NCBI RefSeq assembly: GCF_040812015.1
Contig: NZ_JBFNXJ010000002.1
Coordinates: forward strand, 124,001-188,000
Direction: 5' to 3'
From: Chitinivorax sp. PXF-14
Lineage (GTDB): Bacteria > Pseudomonadota > Gammaproteobacteria > Burkholderiales > SCOH01
DNA length: 64,000 bases
This document shows, piece by piece, positions 1 through 5,318 of this stretch. The position numbers were made by a program, and so were the translations under genes. Below the pieces are notes generated by a model that searched no databases, was not told the origin of the DNA, and saw only the letters and a list, made by a program, of their open reading frames with translations. How positions within the stretch are numbered: position 1 is the stretch's first letter; each line of letters starts with the position of its first letter.

Positions 1-564
1 GGTGTAGATCAGGTCTCCCGGCTGCAGCGTGAACATCGTCGACAGGTAGTGGATCAGGTAAGGCACGCTGAACAGCATCAGCGCCGTGTCGCCAGCCTGC
101 CGCGGCTCACCGTTCAGGCTCATGCCGAAGCGCACGTGGTCGATGTCGGCCATGGTATCGGGCGCGACGAATTCCGAGATGCAGGCCGCGCCGTCGAAGC
201 CCTTGCACAGGGTCCACGGCAGGCCCTTCTGTTTGGCCACCGCCTGGATGTCGCGCGCAGTCAGGTCGAGGCCCAGGCCATAGCCGGCGACATGCTCGAG
301 CGCCGCCTGCTCGGGAATATTCTTGCCACCCTTGCCGATCAGCAGCACCAGCTCGGTCTCATAGTGCACATCGTTCGAGAACGCGGGCAGCGTCAACGGC
401 TGGTCCATCGCATGCAGCGCCGAGGTCGGCTTGATGAAGACCAGTGGTGCCGGCTCGACCTGGTTGCCGAGCTCGGCCGCGTGCGCGGCGTAATTGCGAC
501 CGATGCAGAAGATGTTGGAAACCGGCACTTCGCGGCGATCGGCTTGCAGGATGACGTGAGGCAT
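1..564 (-). CDS. Fumarylacetoacetate hydrolase (FAH) family protein, partial
   Basis: Reverse-strand reading from the ATG at 564 runs open to the window edge (188 codons, no stop), so the C-terminus is missing. The protein begins MPHVILQADRREVPVSNIFC and contains the FAH-family features IGRNYAAHA near residue 23, PLVFIKPTSAL near 41, and YETELVLLIG near 68 with the Glu-x-Glu pair that, with a later Asp, binds the divalent metal in this superfamily. Members cleave or decarboxylate acylpyruvates and related beta-diketo acids. Its small size so far and early active site fit the YcgM/FAHD1-like group (acylpyruvase or oxaloacetate decarboxylase) rather than full-length fumarylacetoacetase. It is the last visible gene of a leftward run, 29 bp after the preceding stop. 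The substrate cannot be deduced. Confidence 0.85.
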   Translation of the reverse strand, partial: MPHVILQADRREVPVSNIFCIGRNYAAHAAELGNQVEPAPLVFIKPTSALHAMDQPLTLPAFSNDVHYETELVLLIGKGGKNIPEQAALEHVAGYGLGLDLTARDIQAVAKQKGLPWTLCKGFDGAACISEFVAPDTMADIDHVRFGMSLNGEPRQAGDTALMLFSVPYLIHYLSTMFTLQPGDLIYT

Positions 565-593
565 GATGAAGGTTTGTTCCGTTCGGGATGAGG

Positions 594-962
594 TCAGGGT
601 TTGTCGGGCAGCGTGTACTCGATGAACAGGGGCGGGATCAAAGCACTCAGGATAATCCATAGCGGAGCCATGAACGACGGGAGATACCCACCGACCGCCG
701 CCTTGAATCGAATCCAGGTATCCGGCCCCAGGCTCATCAGCGCCAGCATCACCGTCAACTGGGCCAGCATCAGCCCCAGCGCCAGGCAGATGACAATACG
801 GCCAGTCTTGCCAAATCTGGCCTGCAGTTCGGTACGGCAATGGGTGCAGCGATAGCGGCAAGCCGTGGCCTTGAACCAGGCAATGCCCTCGCCCCGCGTC
901 CGTGTCAGATGCCGGCCATACCAGCCCAGGCTCTTGCTACAAGCGGGGCAGACACGCTTCAT
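594..962 (-). CDS. Small zinc-ribbon inner-membrane protein, function unknown
   Basis: A 122-residue protein starting at ATG 962 (MKRVCPACSKSLGWYGRH). The N-terminal half carries two cysteine pairs, CPAC near residue 5 and CTHC near residue 39, the pattern of a zinc ribbon. The C-terminal half has two hydrophobic segments (about residues 53-75 and 92-115), so it should sit in the inner membrane with the ribbon probably cytoplasmic. It follows hslO by 14 bp and precedes the FAH-family gene by 29 bp, so it is probably cotranscribed. A longer reading frame exists upstream but runs antiphase through hslO and is not real. I do not recognise a named family, and function is not assigned. Confidence 0.75.
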   Translation of the reverse strand: MKRVCPACSKSLGWYGRHLTRTRGEGIAWFKATACRYRCTHCRTELQARFGKTGRIVICLALGLMLAQLTVMLALMSLGPDTWIRFKAAVGGYLPSFMAPLWIILSALIPPLFIEYTLPDKP

Positions 963-976
963 GATCTGCCCACCCC

Positions 977-1843
977 TCAATGGCGCGTGTCGCTCGCCGG
1001 CTGGCTGATCGGTGCGGCGAATACCTGCTCGACATCGACCGGGTCGAAGTCGTAGCGCGTATTGCAGAACTCGCAGTGGATCTCGATGCTGCCCTGCTCC
1101 TCGATGAGGCTGCGCACCTCGGCCTCGCCCACCATGCGCAACATATTGCCGACCCGCTCGCGCGAGCACGAGCAGCGGAAGGCGATCGGGTGATCGTCGA
1201 ACAGGCGCAGGGTTTCTTCGTGAAACAGACGATGGATCACCTCGCGCGGCGGCAGGTCGAGCAGCTCGCCCTGGGTGATGGTGCCCGCGAGATACTTGGC
1301 GCGGTCCCAGGCATCGGGGTCGCCCTGGCCGGCGGGCAGCTTCTGCAGCAGCAGGCCCGTCGCTCGCTTGTCGTCGGCGGCCAGCCAGAAGCGCGTGTCG
1401 AGCTGCTCGGAGCGCTGCATATAGTTCTCCAGCATCTGGGCAATCGATTCGCCCTCCAGCGCGACGATGCCCTGATACGGCGCCTGGCCGTTCTGCTGGT
1501 CGAGCGTGATGACAAACTTGCCATTGCCCAGCAGCTCGGACAGCGGCATCGGCCTGACCTCGCCCTCCCACTTCGCCGTCGCGCGCATGGTCAGGTCGGC
1601 ATTGCATTCGACCACCATCAGGCGCAAGGCGCCGGTGCCGTGCAGCTGCATGATCAGCGCACCATTGAATTTCAGCGTGGCCGACAGCAGCGCAGCCGAG
1701 GCCATCAGCTCGCCGAGCAGCGAGCGCAGTACCGGCGGGTAGTCGTGGCGCGCCAGCACCTCGCGCCAGGTCTGGTCGAGCGTGACCAGCTCGCCACGCA
1801 CGGGCGCGCCGTCAAACAGGAAACGGGACAGGGAATCTTTCAT
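977..1843 (-). CDS. hslO: Redox-regulated chaperone Hsp33
   Basis: A 288-residue protein, the normal Hsp33 length, starting MKDSLSRFLFDGAPVRGELV at ATG 1843. An upstream in-frame start would add 19 residues not typical of the family. Hsp33 is a cytoplasmic holdase activated by oxidative unfolding. The C-terminal zinc switch is intact: CSC near residue 234 and CEFC about 30 residues later (CxC-x30-CxxC). The N-terminal region has the family signature LLGELMASAALLSATLKFNG. It lies 37 bp downstream of the BPH peptidase gene, and both follow genes for two cysteine-rich redox proteins, which suits a stress or redox operon. Confidence 0.97.
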   Translation of the reverse strand: MKDSLSRFLFDGAPVRGELVTLDQTWREVLARHDYPPVLRSLLGELMASAALLSATLKFNGALIMQLHGTGALRLMVVECNADLTMRATAKWEGEVRPMPLSELLGNGKFVITLDQQNGQAPYQGIVALEGESIAQMLENYMQRSEQLDTRFWLAADDKRATGLLLQKLPAGQGDPDAWDRAKYLAGTITQGELLDLPPREVIHRLFHEETLRLFDDHPIAFRCSCSRERVGNMLRMVGEAEVRSLIEEQGSIEIHCEFCNTRYDFDPVDVEQVFAAPISQPASDTRH

Positions 1844-1880
1844 TGCAACCTCGACATGCCCGGCAAGCGGGCGAAACGCA

Positions 1881-2453
1881 TCAAGTGGGGGTGGTGGCAA
1901 CCGAATACAAGGTCATCGGCAGCGAGGAGTTGATATCGAACTGGCAGCCCGCCTCGACCCCGACGCGCGCGATCTCCTCGGCGGACAGGGCCGAGTCGTA
2001 CACCGCGTGCATGGCACCGGTCGCGTATTCGCGGCCGGTGCCGATGGCCCAGAAACGCTCGAACTGGTATACCTCGCGCATCGAATAGACGCCGAAGATG
2101 CCCTTCGGATTGGCGATCAGCGCCGTCAGCTGGCTCGATTCGTAAGGGTCGTCCTCTTCCTCGTCGGGCTTGAGGAAGAACTCTTCCTTCAATACCGGAT
2201 GCAGCTTGCGGAACGTCTCGAAGATCGCGGCACGGCTCGACAGGTCGAGCTTCTTCTGCTTGCGCAGCGCGCTCTGCAGCACCAGGTCGTGCGCGGCGCT
2301 GCCGGAAATGCCGAGATAGTTGTCGCCGAGCTGGAAAATCTTGTTGTAGGCCGCGTCGAACTGGGCCGGTAGGCGGGTGTCGCCGAAGGTGGACTGGCTG
2401 TCGCCGGCAATGGCGACCATGCCCTGCTTTTGTACGACAACGAGGGTGGTCAT
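1881..2453 (-). CDS. Proteasome-like Ntn peptidase, BPH type (betaproteobacterial proteasome homologue)
   Basis: A 190-residue protein beginning MTTLVVVQKQGMVAIAGDSQ. After Met removal, Thr2 becomes the N-terminal nucleophile of the proteasome/HslV fold. Counting from that Thr as 1, Asp17 falls in AGDS exactly where proteasomal beta subunits have it, and a Lys at about 37 (YNKIF) corresponds to proteasomal Lys33 with a short insertion (TFGDTRLPAQF). It is not HslV: it lacks the TTIVSVRR start and there is no hslU nearby. The sequence type matches the BPH family known from betaproteobacteria, which forms double-ring peptidases. An acidic loop (KPDEEEDDPYE) follows at about residues 95-105. No ATPase partner is encoded in the window. 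The physiological substrate is unknown. Confidence 0.85.
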   Translation of the reverse strand: MTTLVVVQKQGMVAIAGDSQSTFGDTRLPAQFDAAYNKIFQLGDNYLGISGSAAHDLVLQSALRKQKKLDLSSRAAIFETFRKLHPVLKEEFFLKPDEEEDDPYESSQLTALIANPKGIFGVYSMREVYQFERFWAIGTGREYATGAMHAVYDSALSAEEIARVGVEAGCQFDINSSLPMTLYSVATTPT

Positions 2454-2534
2454 GATCTGCTCACCGCAAAACTCGGCATTTTACCCGATTCGCCCCTACC
2501 GCGCCGCAGCGGCGCCCCGCTGTGGACGCCCGGC

Positions 2535-2822
2535 TCAGCCATGATCAGCCGGGCGGTCGCTGTGGCCCAGGCTGCGCTCGGGCGCCACCGCGTCGCGCAC
2601 CAGCTGCTTGAGCTGCTTGATATCGGGAAAGCCGTCGCGCGCCTTGCGGTCCCAGATCTCGCGCCCATCGATGGCGATGTGGAAGATGCCGCCGGTGCCC
2701 GGGTGCAGCGATACCGCGCCCAGTTCATCCTCGAAGGTCGTCAGCAGCTCCTGCGCCATCCAGGCGGCCCGCAGCAGCCAGCGGCATTGCGTGCAGTATT
2801 CGATCGATACGGTGGGTTTCAT
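2535..2822 (-). CDS. SelT/SelW/SelH (Rdx) family CxxC redox protein
   Basis: A 95-residue protein starting at ATG 2822 (MKPTVSIEYCTQCRWLLRAA). A TTG three codons upstream is in frame but less likely. It has the beta-CxxC-alpha thioredoxin-like motif of the Rdx family (CTQC at about residues 10-13, cysteine replacing selenocysteine) and the conserved later segments GGIFHIAIDGREIWDRK and GFPDIKQLKQLVRD. Bacterial members are small cytoplasmic thiol proteins of largely unknown role. It lies 12 bp after the BFD-like ferredoxin gene and 81 bp before the BPH peptidase gene on the same strand. Confidence 0.9.
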   Translation of the reverse strand: MKPTVSIEYCTQCRWLLRAAWMAQELLTTFEDELGAVSLHPGTGGIFHIAIDGREIWDRKARDGFPDIKQLKQLVRDAVAPERSLGHSDRPADHG

Positions 2823-2834
2823 GGGTTTCAAGCG

Positions 2835-3092
2835 TTAGCCTCTCTCTGGTTCATCTGGCTGAAAATGTTGCAGCAGTTCCGCTGCGTCGGCCCGCCCGTC
2901 AAGCTCGACCTCCAGCGTCGGCAGGTGCTCGCGCAGCGCCCGCGCGAGCCACGGCCGGCAGCGGCCGCACTGCAGGCCGGCGCCCGTCAGCAGCATGACG
3001 CAATCGACATCGCCAGCGCAGTCGCCCACCAGCGCCAGCAGGGACTGGAAACTGACGCGGCGGCAGGCGCAACGGTCGATGCAGAGCTTCAT
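2835..3092 (-). CDS. BFD-like [2Fe-2S]-binding protein
   Basis: An 85-residue protein starting at ATG 3092 (MKLCIDRCACRRVSFQSL). Its spacing CAC (residues 8-10) then CGRC (42-45) matches the CxC-x31-CxxC cluster-binding pattern of bacterioferritin-associated ferredoxin (BFD-like, Fer2_BFD) domains, which donate electrons in iron mobilisation or form part of oxidoreductases. The C-terminus is unusually long and acidic for Bfd. No bacterioferritin gene lies nearby, so a role in iron release is not supported by context. The start codon overlaps the stop of the upstream gene (ATGA), which suggests translational coupling. Confidence 0.85.
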   Translation of the reverse strand: MKLCIDRCACRRVSFQSLLALVGDCAGDVDCVMLLTGAGLQCGRCRPWLARALREHLPTLEVELDGRADAAELLQHFQPDEPERG

Positions 3093-3286
3093 GGCGATGC
3101 GCGCCGGCCCAGCAGGCGCTGCCACACACGGCGCCACCAGGGCTGTGGGGGCGGCGGCGCCACGGCCGCCCGGTCGCGCGCCAGGCTTTGCCGGGTGGCG
3201 GCGTGGATCTCGCGCATCGTCAACCCGCCGGGACCCTTGAGCTTGTCCGGATCGTGCTCGTCGGGTGGATTCTTCAGCGTGCTCAT
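3089..3286 (-). CDS. Small basic hypothetical protein
   Basis: A 65-residue protein beginning MSTLKNPPDEHDPDKLKGPG. The N-terminal half is acidic and polar, the middle has a proline run (APPPPQPWW), and the C-terminus is basic with tryptophans (WWRRVWQRLLGRR), possibly an amphipathic membrane-binding helix. The stop overlaps the start of the BFD-like gene by four bases, which supports its being translated. It is the first gene of the leftward run, and its promoter must lie in the 115 bp shared with the divergent lipase gene. The family is not recognised. Confidence 0.65.
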   Translation of the reverse strand: MSTLKNPPDEHDPDKLKGPGGLTMREIHAATRQSLARDRAAVAPPPPQPWWRRVWQRLLGRRASP

Positions 3287-3401
3287 GACCGTATTTTAGA
3301 ACCTCTTCAGCCGTCGTCGCGAGTGCCGCGCGGGGCCTCGTTCCGCCTGCGGCCGGCGCAGAATTTGCTATAACGGGGCAACACCTAGCGGGAGTAGCAT
3401 C

Positions 3402-5318
3402 ATGGTCGATCTGCGCGTGCTCGATGTCCTGATCGGGCTGAGCCTCGTCTACTTGCTGCTGAGCTCGGTGTGCTCGGCCGTGATGGAGGCCTGGAACAAT
3501 CTGCGCAATCGCCGCGGCTACTATCTGGAGCGCCATCTGGTGCGCCTGTTCGGCGACAGGGCGAAGGACGAGATCATCAACGGCGACGACCTACAGAGCC
3601 TGTGGACGCGCCCGGTGCGATCGTGGTGGCACAAGAGCGATTTCCCCTCCTACATCCCCACCAATATGCTGTCGGCGCGGCTGATCGCCTGGTTCCGCCA
3701 TGCCGGGCCGGAGCGCATGCCGCCGCCACCCAACGCCGACGGCAAGATACCACCGGGGCAGGCCAACCTGGCGCAGCTGATGCTCAGGCACAGCGGCGAC
3801 GACACGGCGCTCGCGGTCGAGATCGGCAAGTGGTTCAACCAGACCATGGAGCGCATGACCGGCGAATTCGCGCGCGAGACCAAGCACCGCATGTTGCTGC
3901 TGGCCGTGCTGATCGCGGTGGCAGCCAATGCCGACTCGATCCGTCTGTTCGGCGACCTCTACACCGACCCGATGCTGCGCGATGCGATCGTCAAGCAGGC
4001 CGAAGCGAAGATTGCCAACCCGCCGGCCACGCCAGCCAACAAGCCCAGCGACGGCAACCCGGCTGACGCCCAGCAGGCCCCCCCGGCGGCAACGGCGCAA
4101 GCACCCGACGCCAAAGCCGCCGCCCCCAACACGGCTACAGAAAGCAGCGCACCAGCGGCCAGCACCACCGACAGCAGCCAACCCCAGCAACCGCCAGCAC
4201 CGGCAGGCAACTCTCTCGAACAGCTGAAGAAGGACATCGGCTCGCTGCCCGTGCTCGGCTGGACCAAAACCCAGGCGACCGATACCGCCGCGCAGGTCGA
4301 GCAGCGCCGCTGGGGCGCCATGCTGCAGATGCTGCTGGGCTACCTGATCACCGCCTTCGCGCTGCTGTTCGGCGCCGATTTCTGGTTCAACACCCTGCAG
4401 AAACTGCTCAAGGTGCGCACCTCGCTACGCTCCAAGGACGAACCCGATGCAGCTGCCACGACTGACCAGACTGCAGCACAAGCCGGCAGCCCGGCAGCGG
4501 CGGTGGCCGCCACGCCGGCCTGCACGGTAGCCCAGCCGCTGCTGACAGACGCCTATTGCTACGCCCATGTGTCGTCCTATGCCTATCGCGCCCTGGCGGC
4601 GGATGTCGGCCAGACATTAGCGCTTGGCAGCCGGCGCTATGTCATCGACCAGTATTTCAGCCGGCGCGGCACCCAGGCCGTGCTGCTGACCCCCAGCGAC
4701 GACGCCAGCACCGCCGTGCTGGCGTTTCGCGGCACCGAGCTCAAGGAGTGGATGGACGTGCGCGCCGACATCGACTTCCCCCATGTGCACTGGGCGCAGG
4801 CAGGCTTCGACCACATGCCGGTACAACAGACCGTGCACAAGGGCTTCGCCGACGCGCTGCGGCTGGTGCTCGACGAGCAGTTGATCAACAGCCTGCGCGA
4901 CAAGCGCCTCATCATCACCGGCCACAGCCTGGGCGGCGCGCTGGCCGCCCTGTGCGCCATGGTGCTCAAGCAGCGCGGGCTGTGCCTGACGGCGGTGTAC
5001 ACCTATGGCCAGCCGCGCGTCGGCGACCTGGTGTTCTCGCAGGACTACGATGTCGGCCTGCATGGCATCACCTATCGCATCGTCAACCACCGCGACCTGG
5101 TGCCGCGCGTGCCGACCCGCACCATGCAATACCGCCACGCCGGCCAGTGCCTGTATCTCGACACCGACGGCATCGCCCATCTGGAGCCCGGCCTGTGGCA
5201 GATCCTGCTCGATGTCGTGCCTTTCGACGGCAACCATTGGCAAGATGGCCTCAAGCAAGCCTTGGGCGACCATTCGATCAGCGAATACCAGCGCCTGCTG
5301 CAAGCCAACCTGGGCTGA
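3402..5318 (+). CDS. Membrane-anchored class 3 lipase family protein
   Basis: A 638-residue protein. Residues 8-30 are hydrophobic (VLIGLSLVYLLLSSVCSAVM), followed by a soluble stretch, a hydrophobic segment near 164-178, a long Ala/Pro/Gln/Ser-rich linker at about 205-275 and a further membrane segment near 307-328 (LLGYLITAFALLFGADFWF). The C-terminal part from about residue 385 is a class 3 lipase domain (alpha/beta hydrolase) with the nucleophile elbow GHSLGGALA near residue 507, TYGQPRVGD near 537 and the conserved late His region (VNHRDLVPRVP). The enzyme should be tethered to the inner membrane. The role is unknown, although the fold predicts hydrolysis of acylglycerol or phospholipid esters. 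The start is preceded by GGGAG at 3390-3394. It is divergent from the small-protein/redox operon. Confidence 0.85.
   Translation: MVDLRVLDVLIGLSLVYLLLSSVCSAVMEAWNNLRNRRGYYLERHLVRLFGDRAKDEIINGDDLQSLWTRPVRSWWHKSDFPSYIPTNMLSARLIAWFRHAGPERMPPPPNADGKIPPGQANLAQLMLRHSGDDTALAVEIGKWFNQTMERMTGEFARETKHRMLLLAVLIAVAANADSIRLFGDLYTDPMLRDAIVKQAEAKIANPPATPANKPSDGNPADAQQAPPAATAQAPDAKAAAPNTATESSAPAASTTDSSQPQQPPAPAGNSLEQLKKDIGSLPVLGWTKTQATDTAAQVEQRRWGAMLQMLLGYLITAFALLFGADFWFNTLQKLLKVRTSLRSKDEPDAAATTDQTAAQAGSPAAAVAATPACTVAQPLLTDAYCYAHVSSYAYRALAADVGQTLALGSRRYVIDQYFSRRGTQAVLLTPSDDASTAVLAFRGTELKEWMDVRADIDFPHVHWAQAGFDHMPVQQTVHKGFADALRLVLDEQLINSLRDKRLIITGHSLGGALAALCAMVLKQRGLCLTAVYTYGQPRVGDLVFSQDYDVGLHGITYRIVNHRDLVPRVPTRTMQYRHAGQCLYLDTDGIAHLEPGLWQILLDVVPFDGNHWQDGLKQALGDHSISEYQRLLQANLG

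Follow-up and report, generated by a model that had tools for sequence, protein, structure and literature searches.

The bacterial proteasome homologue (BPH) descends from HslV and occurs in three prevailing genomic contexts, one of them an operon with the gene for the chaperone Hsp33 in Laribacter hongkongensis (Fuchs et al., 2017; PMC5777263, cited throughout from the accessible part of its text). That study proposed a role for BPH in the oxidative stress response and reported that inhibitors do bind the BPH active site; its accessible part names neither a substrate nor a partner and records no activity in vitro. The BPHs assayed were those of C. metallidurans, which sits with pyruvate dehydrogenase, and T. 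denitrificans, which sits with argG; neither lies beside hslO, the gene for Hsp33, so a BPH-Hsp33 pair was untouched by those assays. Here we describe such a pair in a stretch of 64,000 nt from Chitinivorax sp. PXF-14 (contig NZ_JBFNXJ010000002.1, positions 124,001 to 188,000; this whole stretch is called the window, and coordinates are counted from its first nucleotide).

The window pair belongs to the operon type already published for L. hongkongensis, with BPH and hslO in one operon (PMC5777263); the window adds lineage-specific Rdx and BFD-like genes upstream, and zinc-ribbon and FAH-family genes downstream. What is new here is that one named operon example becomes a counted, clade-wide linkage, and that the local redox genes are removed from the hypothesis. 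In our literature search, BPH, Hsp33, proteasome and HslV appeared together only in PMC5777263, although earlier reports of the context are possible; in PMC11664415, BPH occurs solely inside reference DOIs. The new homologues described by Fuchs et al. (2021; PMC8665760, accessible part) came without informative genomic context.

The BPH-hslO pair and its conservation

In the window, BPH (1881..2453, minus strand, 190 amino acids [aa]) is followed directly on the same strand by hslO (977..1843, minus strand, 288 aa), with a gap of 37 nt. Conservation of this pairing, which the initial annotation had proposed to check, was borne out: of 174 scorable loci, 69 have an hslO downstream of BPH and on its strand, including all 55 scorable loci of the window's clade on the BPH tree. 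The adjacency of the two genes is above chance expectation.

Model scores separate the window BPH from HslV. With phmmer, it matched the solved BPHs 5ovu (E=2.3e-54) and 5ovs (E=3.5e-39), and the best HslV only at E=2.1e-5 (which of 5ovu and 5ovs/5ovt is from C. metallidurans and which from T. denitrificans is our own assignment). HslV models gave 36.7 bits (cut-off 137) and 35.1 bits (cut-off 157.75), and proteasome beta models were likewise far below cut-off. The same genome carries an hslV-hslU pair elsewhere, both genes above cut-off and without stops, so BPH is not replacing HslV. Like the BPHs of C. metallidurans and T. denitrificans, which belong to the same family, the window protein has a Thr-1 nucleophile (Met-Thr-Thr start) and an acidic pore loop (PDEEEDDPYESS), which is long (FFLKPDEEEDDPYESS). 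In an alignment of 10 BPHs it keeps Thr1, Asp17, Lys37 and Gly50 (T2, D18, K38 and G51 counting Met), the positions named catalytic by Fuchs et al. (2017; PMC5777263). The position we take to be Ser139, which hydrogen-bonds Thr1 and which we matched by the GSG motif, is Thr in the window; among 154 BPHs with a readable motif it is Ser in 131, Ala in 15 and Thr in 8, and Ser139 is therefore not strictly defining for BPH. The BPHs of linked loci are of the Thr-1 type in 68 of 69 cases, the remaining one being cut short at its start.

The window hslO product passes the Pfam HSP33 model (280.8 bits, cut-off 21.4) and the NCBIfam HslO equivalog model, and its zinc/redox cysteines, CxC and CxxC, are intact (CSC...CEFC). 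Both motifs are retained by linked Hsp33s in 68 of 69 loci; the exception is truncated. Separately, six Hsp33 homologues (L267, L274, L280, L293, L294 and L326) have the first Cys of CxxC substituted, mostly by Asp, and are therefore probably not subject to the usual kind of redox switch. We also considered a C-terminal docking tail, as most linked Hsp33s have TRH at their C-terminus, or H or Q as last residue, and rejected it: the same tail is frequent in unlinked and BPH-free genomes. The unlinked Hsp33 stretches used for comparison were chosen by hand (39 usable of 40).

For the survey, 200 genomes were drawn evenly from the order and 369 from the class. BPH was found in 77 of the 200 order genomes and 45 of the 369 class genomes; Hsp33 was found in 157 of the same 200. 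The loci set comprised 74 loci from 72 order genomes outside the window's family, four family relatives, 42 of 44 other class hits (G189, which was split, and G289 were left out) and 80 named loci, which were the top 80 of 392 ranked on similarity to the window BPH, such that the set is biased towards that protein. With the window this made 201 loci; removing 16 whose BPH DNA was identical to another's left 185. Linkage was scored up to 5 kb on each side, and 11 loci with less than 900 bp downstream were left unscored. Gene calls and start codons were heuristic and homology-weighted; one BPH (L222) was missed, and the context strings include doubtful open reading frames (ORFs). By source, the linked scorable loci are 4/4 from family relatives, 24/70 from the rest of the order, 0/41 from the class and 40/58 from the named set, plus the window. 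Where an order genome has both genes they are adjacent in 29 of 67 cases, spread over 7 of the 25 BPH-bearing families.

We placed 184 BPHs on a quick maximum-likelihood tree, leaving out L222, whose reading was too short. The window falls in a clade of 56 rows with Chitinibacteraceae, Chromobacteriaceae and other loci; the one unscored member, L107, ends just past BPH. Immediately downstream of BPH, hslO is the first gene in 47 of the 55 scorable clade loci, and in a further seven a YhcH-family gene is followed by hslO, so that hslO stands at position +1 or +2 in 54 of 55 by the heuristic gene calls. BPH and hslO are separated by no more than 85 nt in 44 of the 54 loci measured, and in 16 of the 54 they overlap (heuristic starts). 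The gene upstream of BPH varies, and the commonest, cinA-like, accounts for only 22 of the 55. Outside this clade there are 13 linked loci in a group with Casimicrobiaceae bins among its members; interspersed with them are relatives that lack hslO at this place and carry paiB-like or Hsp15-like genes instead. A further linked locus is from Sulfuricella. Over the scorable rows of the BPH tree the linkage state requires eight changes. In a quick tree of Hsp33 (134 rows: 68 of the 69 linked Hsp33s, with L252 left out, and 66 unlinked ones) it requires four changes, and linked Hsp33s stand at three separate places. Either a single old gain with later losses or repeated gains fits these trees.

A promoter-like element upstream of BPH

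An 81-nt gap precedes BPH in the window, and within it lies a -10-like element, TAAAAT (2478..2483, minus strand), 30 nt before the BPH start codon. The element is conserved: each of the five genomes of the window's family has a TAAAAT upstream of the BPH start, at a distance of 30-33 nt, where shuffled sequences gave an expectation of 0.03, for a motif that came from comparing the relatives and was picked after the sequences were seen. Elsewhere in the clade, 26 loci lack cinA and orn upstream, and 7 of them carry TAAAAT or TACAAT (0.19 expected); of the 25 that do have cinA or orn there, none carries either motif (0.28 expected). Given its conservation in the five family genomes, we suggest that BPH and hslO probably have a promoter of their own just before BPH in this family. 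Against such a promoter, a two-hexamer scan of positions 1-3700 returned no sigma-70-type site, and by eye a good -35 was not seen upstream of TAAAAT in the window.

Transcription may also read through from Rdx into BPH. As a candidate terminator between the two genes we considered a strong hairpin that overlaps the Rdx stop codon; it has no T run, the stretch shows no folding advantage over shuffles (z=-0.41), and on the minus strand the scan of 1-3700 gave no terminator-like sites.

Heat-shock promoter scores of at least 10 were found upstream in 14 of 56 clade loci, as against 42 of 560 shuffles. A block of the form CTTG...AT[AC]T lies at -58 to -62 before BPH in eight of the 56 (L106, L117, L118, L121, L218, L220, L223 and L253), and the window is not among them. 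This conserved, promoter-like block has a mixed heat-shock and housekeeping character, and sigma-70 spacing fits it equally well.

Proposed co-expression, with inheritance and handover as alternatives

We propose, with about an even chance of being right, that BPH and hslO are a co-expressed stress-proteostasis pair with two separate arms. The functional unit would be this pair rather than the string of seven genes in which it stands, and in the window the two genes would probably share the putative promoter just upstream of BPH and be read as a single transcript. In one arm, Hsp33 would hold unfolding proteins once oxidised. In the other, BPH, predicted to assemble as a sealed double-ring peptidase and having no known ATPase, would be proteolytically active and clear the subset of damaged or disordered polypeptides that pass its acidic pore loop. 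The two products would thus share a physiology, and direct delivery of clients by Hsp33 to BPH is not part of this proposal.

Several observations weigh against it. No hslO was found within up to 5 kb on either side of BPH in 105 of the 174 scorable loci, and the two genes are non-adjacent in 38 of the 67 order genomes that have both. Hsp33 was undetected in 10 of the 77 BPH-bearing order genomes (in one of these, G537, BPH lies at a contig end), so Hsp33 cannot be the general partner of BPH. Hsp33 is present in 67 of the 77 genomes with BPH and 90 of the 123 without it, a weak association (Fisher p=0.022, uncorrected for relatedness). On the Hsp33 tree, the main clade has nested within it an unlinked Hsp33 (L297), which comes from a genome with no BPH match (G414). 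In the accessible part of the published work, carbonylation patterns were unaffected by C. metallidurans BPH, pull-downs from that species yielded no obvious partner, and neither its BPH nor that of T. denitrificans acted on peptides or casein (PMC5777263). Our survey identifies suitable organisms, in a clade that has BPH beside hslO in every scorable locus.

BPH also sits in at least five other contexts: a riboflavin operon (28 loci), arginine genes (25), gluQ/paiB/hsp15 genes without hslO (24), pyruvate dehydrogenase (8) and trpE-like genes (8). These contexts, too, tell against a dedicated BPH-hslO pair, and because several of them are frozen within their own clades, the main alternative is historical hitch-hiking, in which BPH moves among housekeeping operons and then becomes fixed, so that its position ahead of hslO would be inherited and have no function beyond expression. 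We regard this as possible but as the less probable account. That linkage changes a mere eight times on the BPH tree is what it would lead one to expect; however, within the window's clade the upstream neighbours vary while hslO stays, and the BPH-hslO junction recurs outside the clade with other flanks.

A further alternative is direct handover, in which Hsp33 would supply the unfoldase or adaptor that is otherwise missing for BPH in this clade, working independently of ATP: clients such as EF-Tu unfolded by reduced Hsp33, or oxidised proteins held by oxidised Hsp33, would pass to the acidic pore of BPH and be degraded without ATP. There is a precedent: reduced Hsp33 unfolds EF-Tu and so makes it a substrate of Lon (PMC8614738, accessible part), likewise a case of Hsp33 rendering a client accessible to a protease. 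The conserved linkage would also fit handover, as would the finding that no AAA+ family was present among 16 neighbour representatives scanned against Pfam. The accessible part of PMC5777263 gives no candidate ATPase for BPH either, and the pull-downs reported there used C. metallidurans, in which the genes are unlinked. Nevertheless, the unlinked loci and the BPH genomes without detected Hsp33 counted above argue against handover, as does the absence of a BPH-specific tail from Hsp33, the TRH-type C-terminus being present in BPH-free genomes. Lon, in contrast to the route supposed for BPH, is an ATP-dependent protease. We therefore consider handover unlikely; if true, it would amount to an energy-free chaperone-protease machine, usable under ATP depletion.

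The initial annotation had embedded BPH in a redox-protein operon, and a joint action of BFD, Rdx, BPH and hslO on cysteine oxidation or Fe-S damage would fit the shared strand and short gaps of the window, and the presence of Rdx before BPH in two family relatives as well, but we think it very improbable: with matches accepted up to E=1e-3, Rdx adjoins BPH in only 3 of 55 clade loci (the window, L063 and L064) and BFD, which had no match in the other loci searched, in the window alone (1 of 55), and the 81-nt gap holds a conserved promoter-like element of the pair's own. The Rdx and BFD neighbours look like a local arrangement outside the co-expressed BPH-hslO pair that we favour.

Flanking genes and other contexts of BPH

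The genes that the initial annotation had called in positions 1-3286 (BFD-like, SelW-like, BPH and hslO) are all present, and family scans agree; its placing of BPH between two cysteine proteins and hslO holds as an order, with the precision that both cysteine proteins are upstream of BPH. Read along the minus strand, the string is a 65-aa ORF of unassigned function (3089..3286), the BFD-like gene (2835..3092, 85 aa), the Rdx gene (2535..2822, 95 aa), BPH, hslO, a gene for a zinc-ribbon membrane protein (594..962, 122 aa) and a FAH-family hydrolase gene cut by the window edge (1..564). The junctions are, in the same order, a 4-nt overlap between the ORF and the start of the BFD-like gene and then gaps of 12, 81, 37, 14 and 29 nt. 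The 95-aa product is a SelW-like CxxC protein matching Pfam Rdx (E=2.1e-32). The BFD-like [2Fe-2S] protein has CxC-x31-CxxC cysteines and scores 26.7 bits with Pfam Fer2_BFD against a cut-off of 26.0, so its assignment is marginal; BFD had no match in the four family relatives even at E up to 10, with an 85-aa query that is weak. Among the unlinked hslO loci searched, one has an Rdx relative near hslO: L275 (504-770; genome G498), where a protein 70% identical to the window's Rdx is encoded about 2.7 kb from an hslO that does not adjoin BPH. The zinc-ribbon membrane protein is described by eye, and no family model passed its cut-off. Downstream of hslO, the FAH gene also occurs in both family relatives that have sufficient sequence on that side, L061 and L062. 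Divergent from the BPH genes, on the plus strand (3402..5318), is a gene whose 638-aa product has a Pro/Ala-rich stretch and, C-terminally, a class-3 lipase domain.

Family scans of context representatives confirmed ribD, ribE, ribBA, nrdR, argG, YajQ, a CinA/PncC domain, GluQRS and Ppnp, and also a lipoamide-dehydrogenase-like protein and the YhcH family; the labels paiB, trpE, aceE, aceF, ribH, argD, argF, proS and orn were assigned by eye. The riboflavin operon has the order nrdR-ribD-BPH-ribE-ribBA, for example in L071 (6127-10178), whose gene families were checked. ribD was called near BPH in 28 loci, 25 of which have both ribD and ribE, and the BPHs of all 28 riboflavin-operon loci have Ser after the start residue (Ser-1 type). 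The word 'riboflavin' is absent from the text of PMC5777263 that was accessible, and the three prevailing contexts given there are others.

An Hsp15-like S4-domain gene adjoins BPH, with or without hslO between them, in L126, L128, L132, L133-L135, L140, L214, L251 and others. The representative scored 93.1 bits, under the Hsp15 model cut-off of 148, and the gene is possibly a second heat-shock neighbour of BPH. Two genomes each carry two different BPH genes (G523, with L147 and L174; G485, with L149 and L173). The order argG-BPH-YajQ is found in L157, L152, L158 and others, ppnP lies directly before BPH in eight loci, and YajQ is immediately downstream of BPH in 21 of the 22 loci in which it was called.

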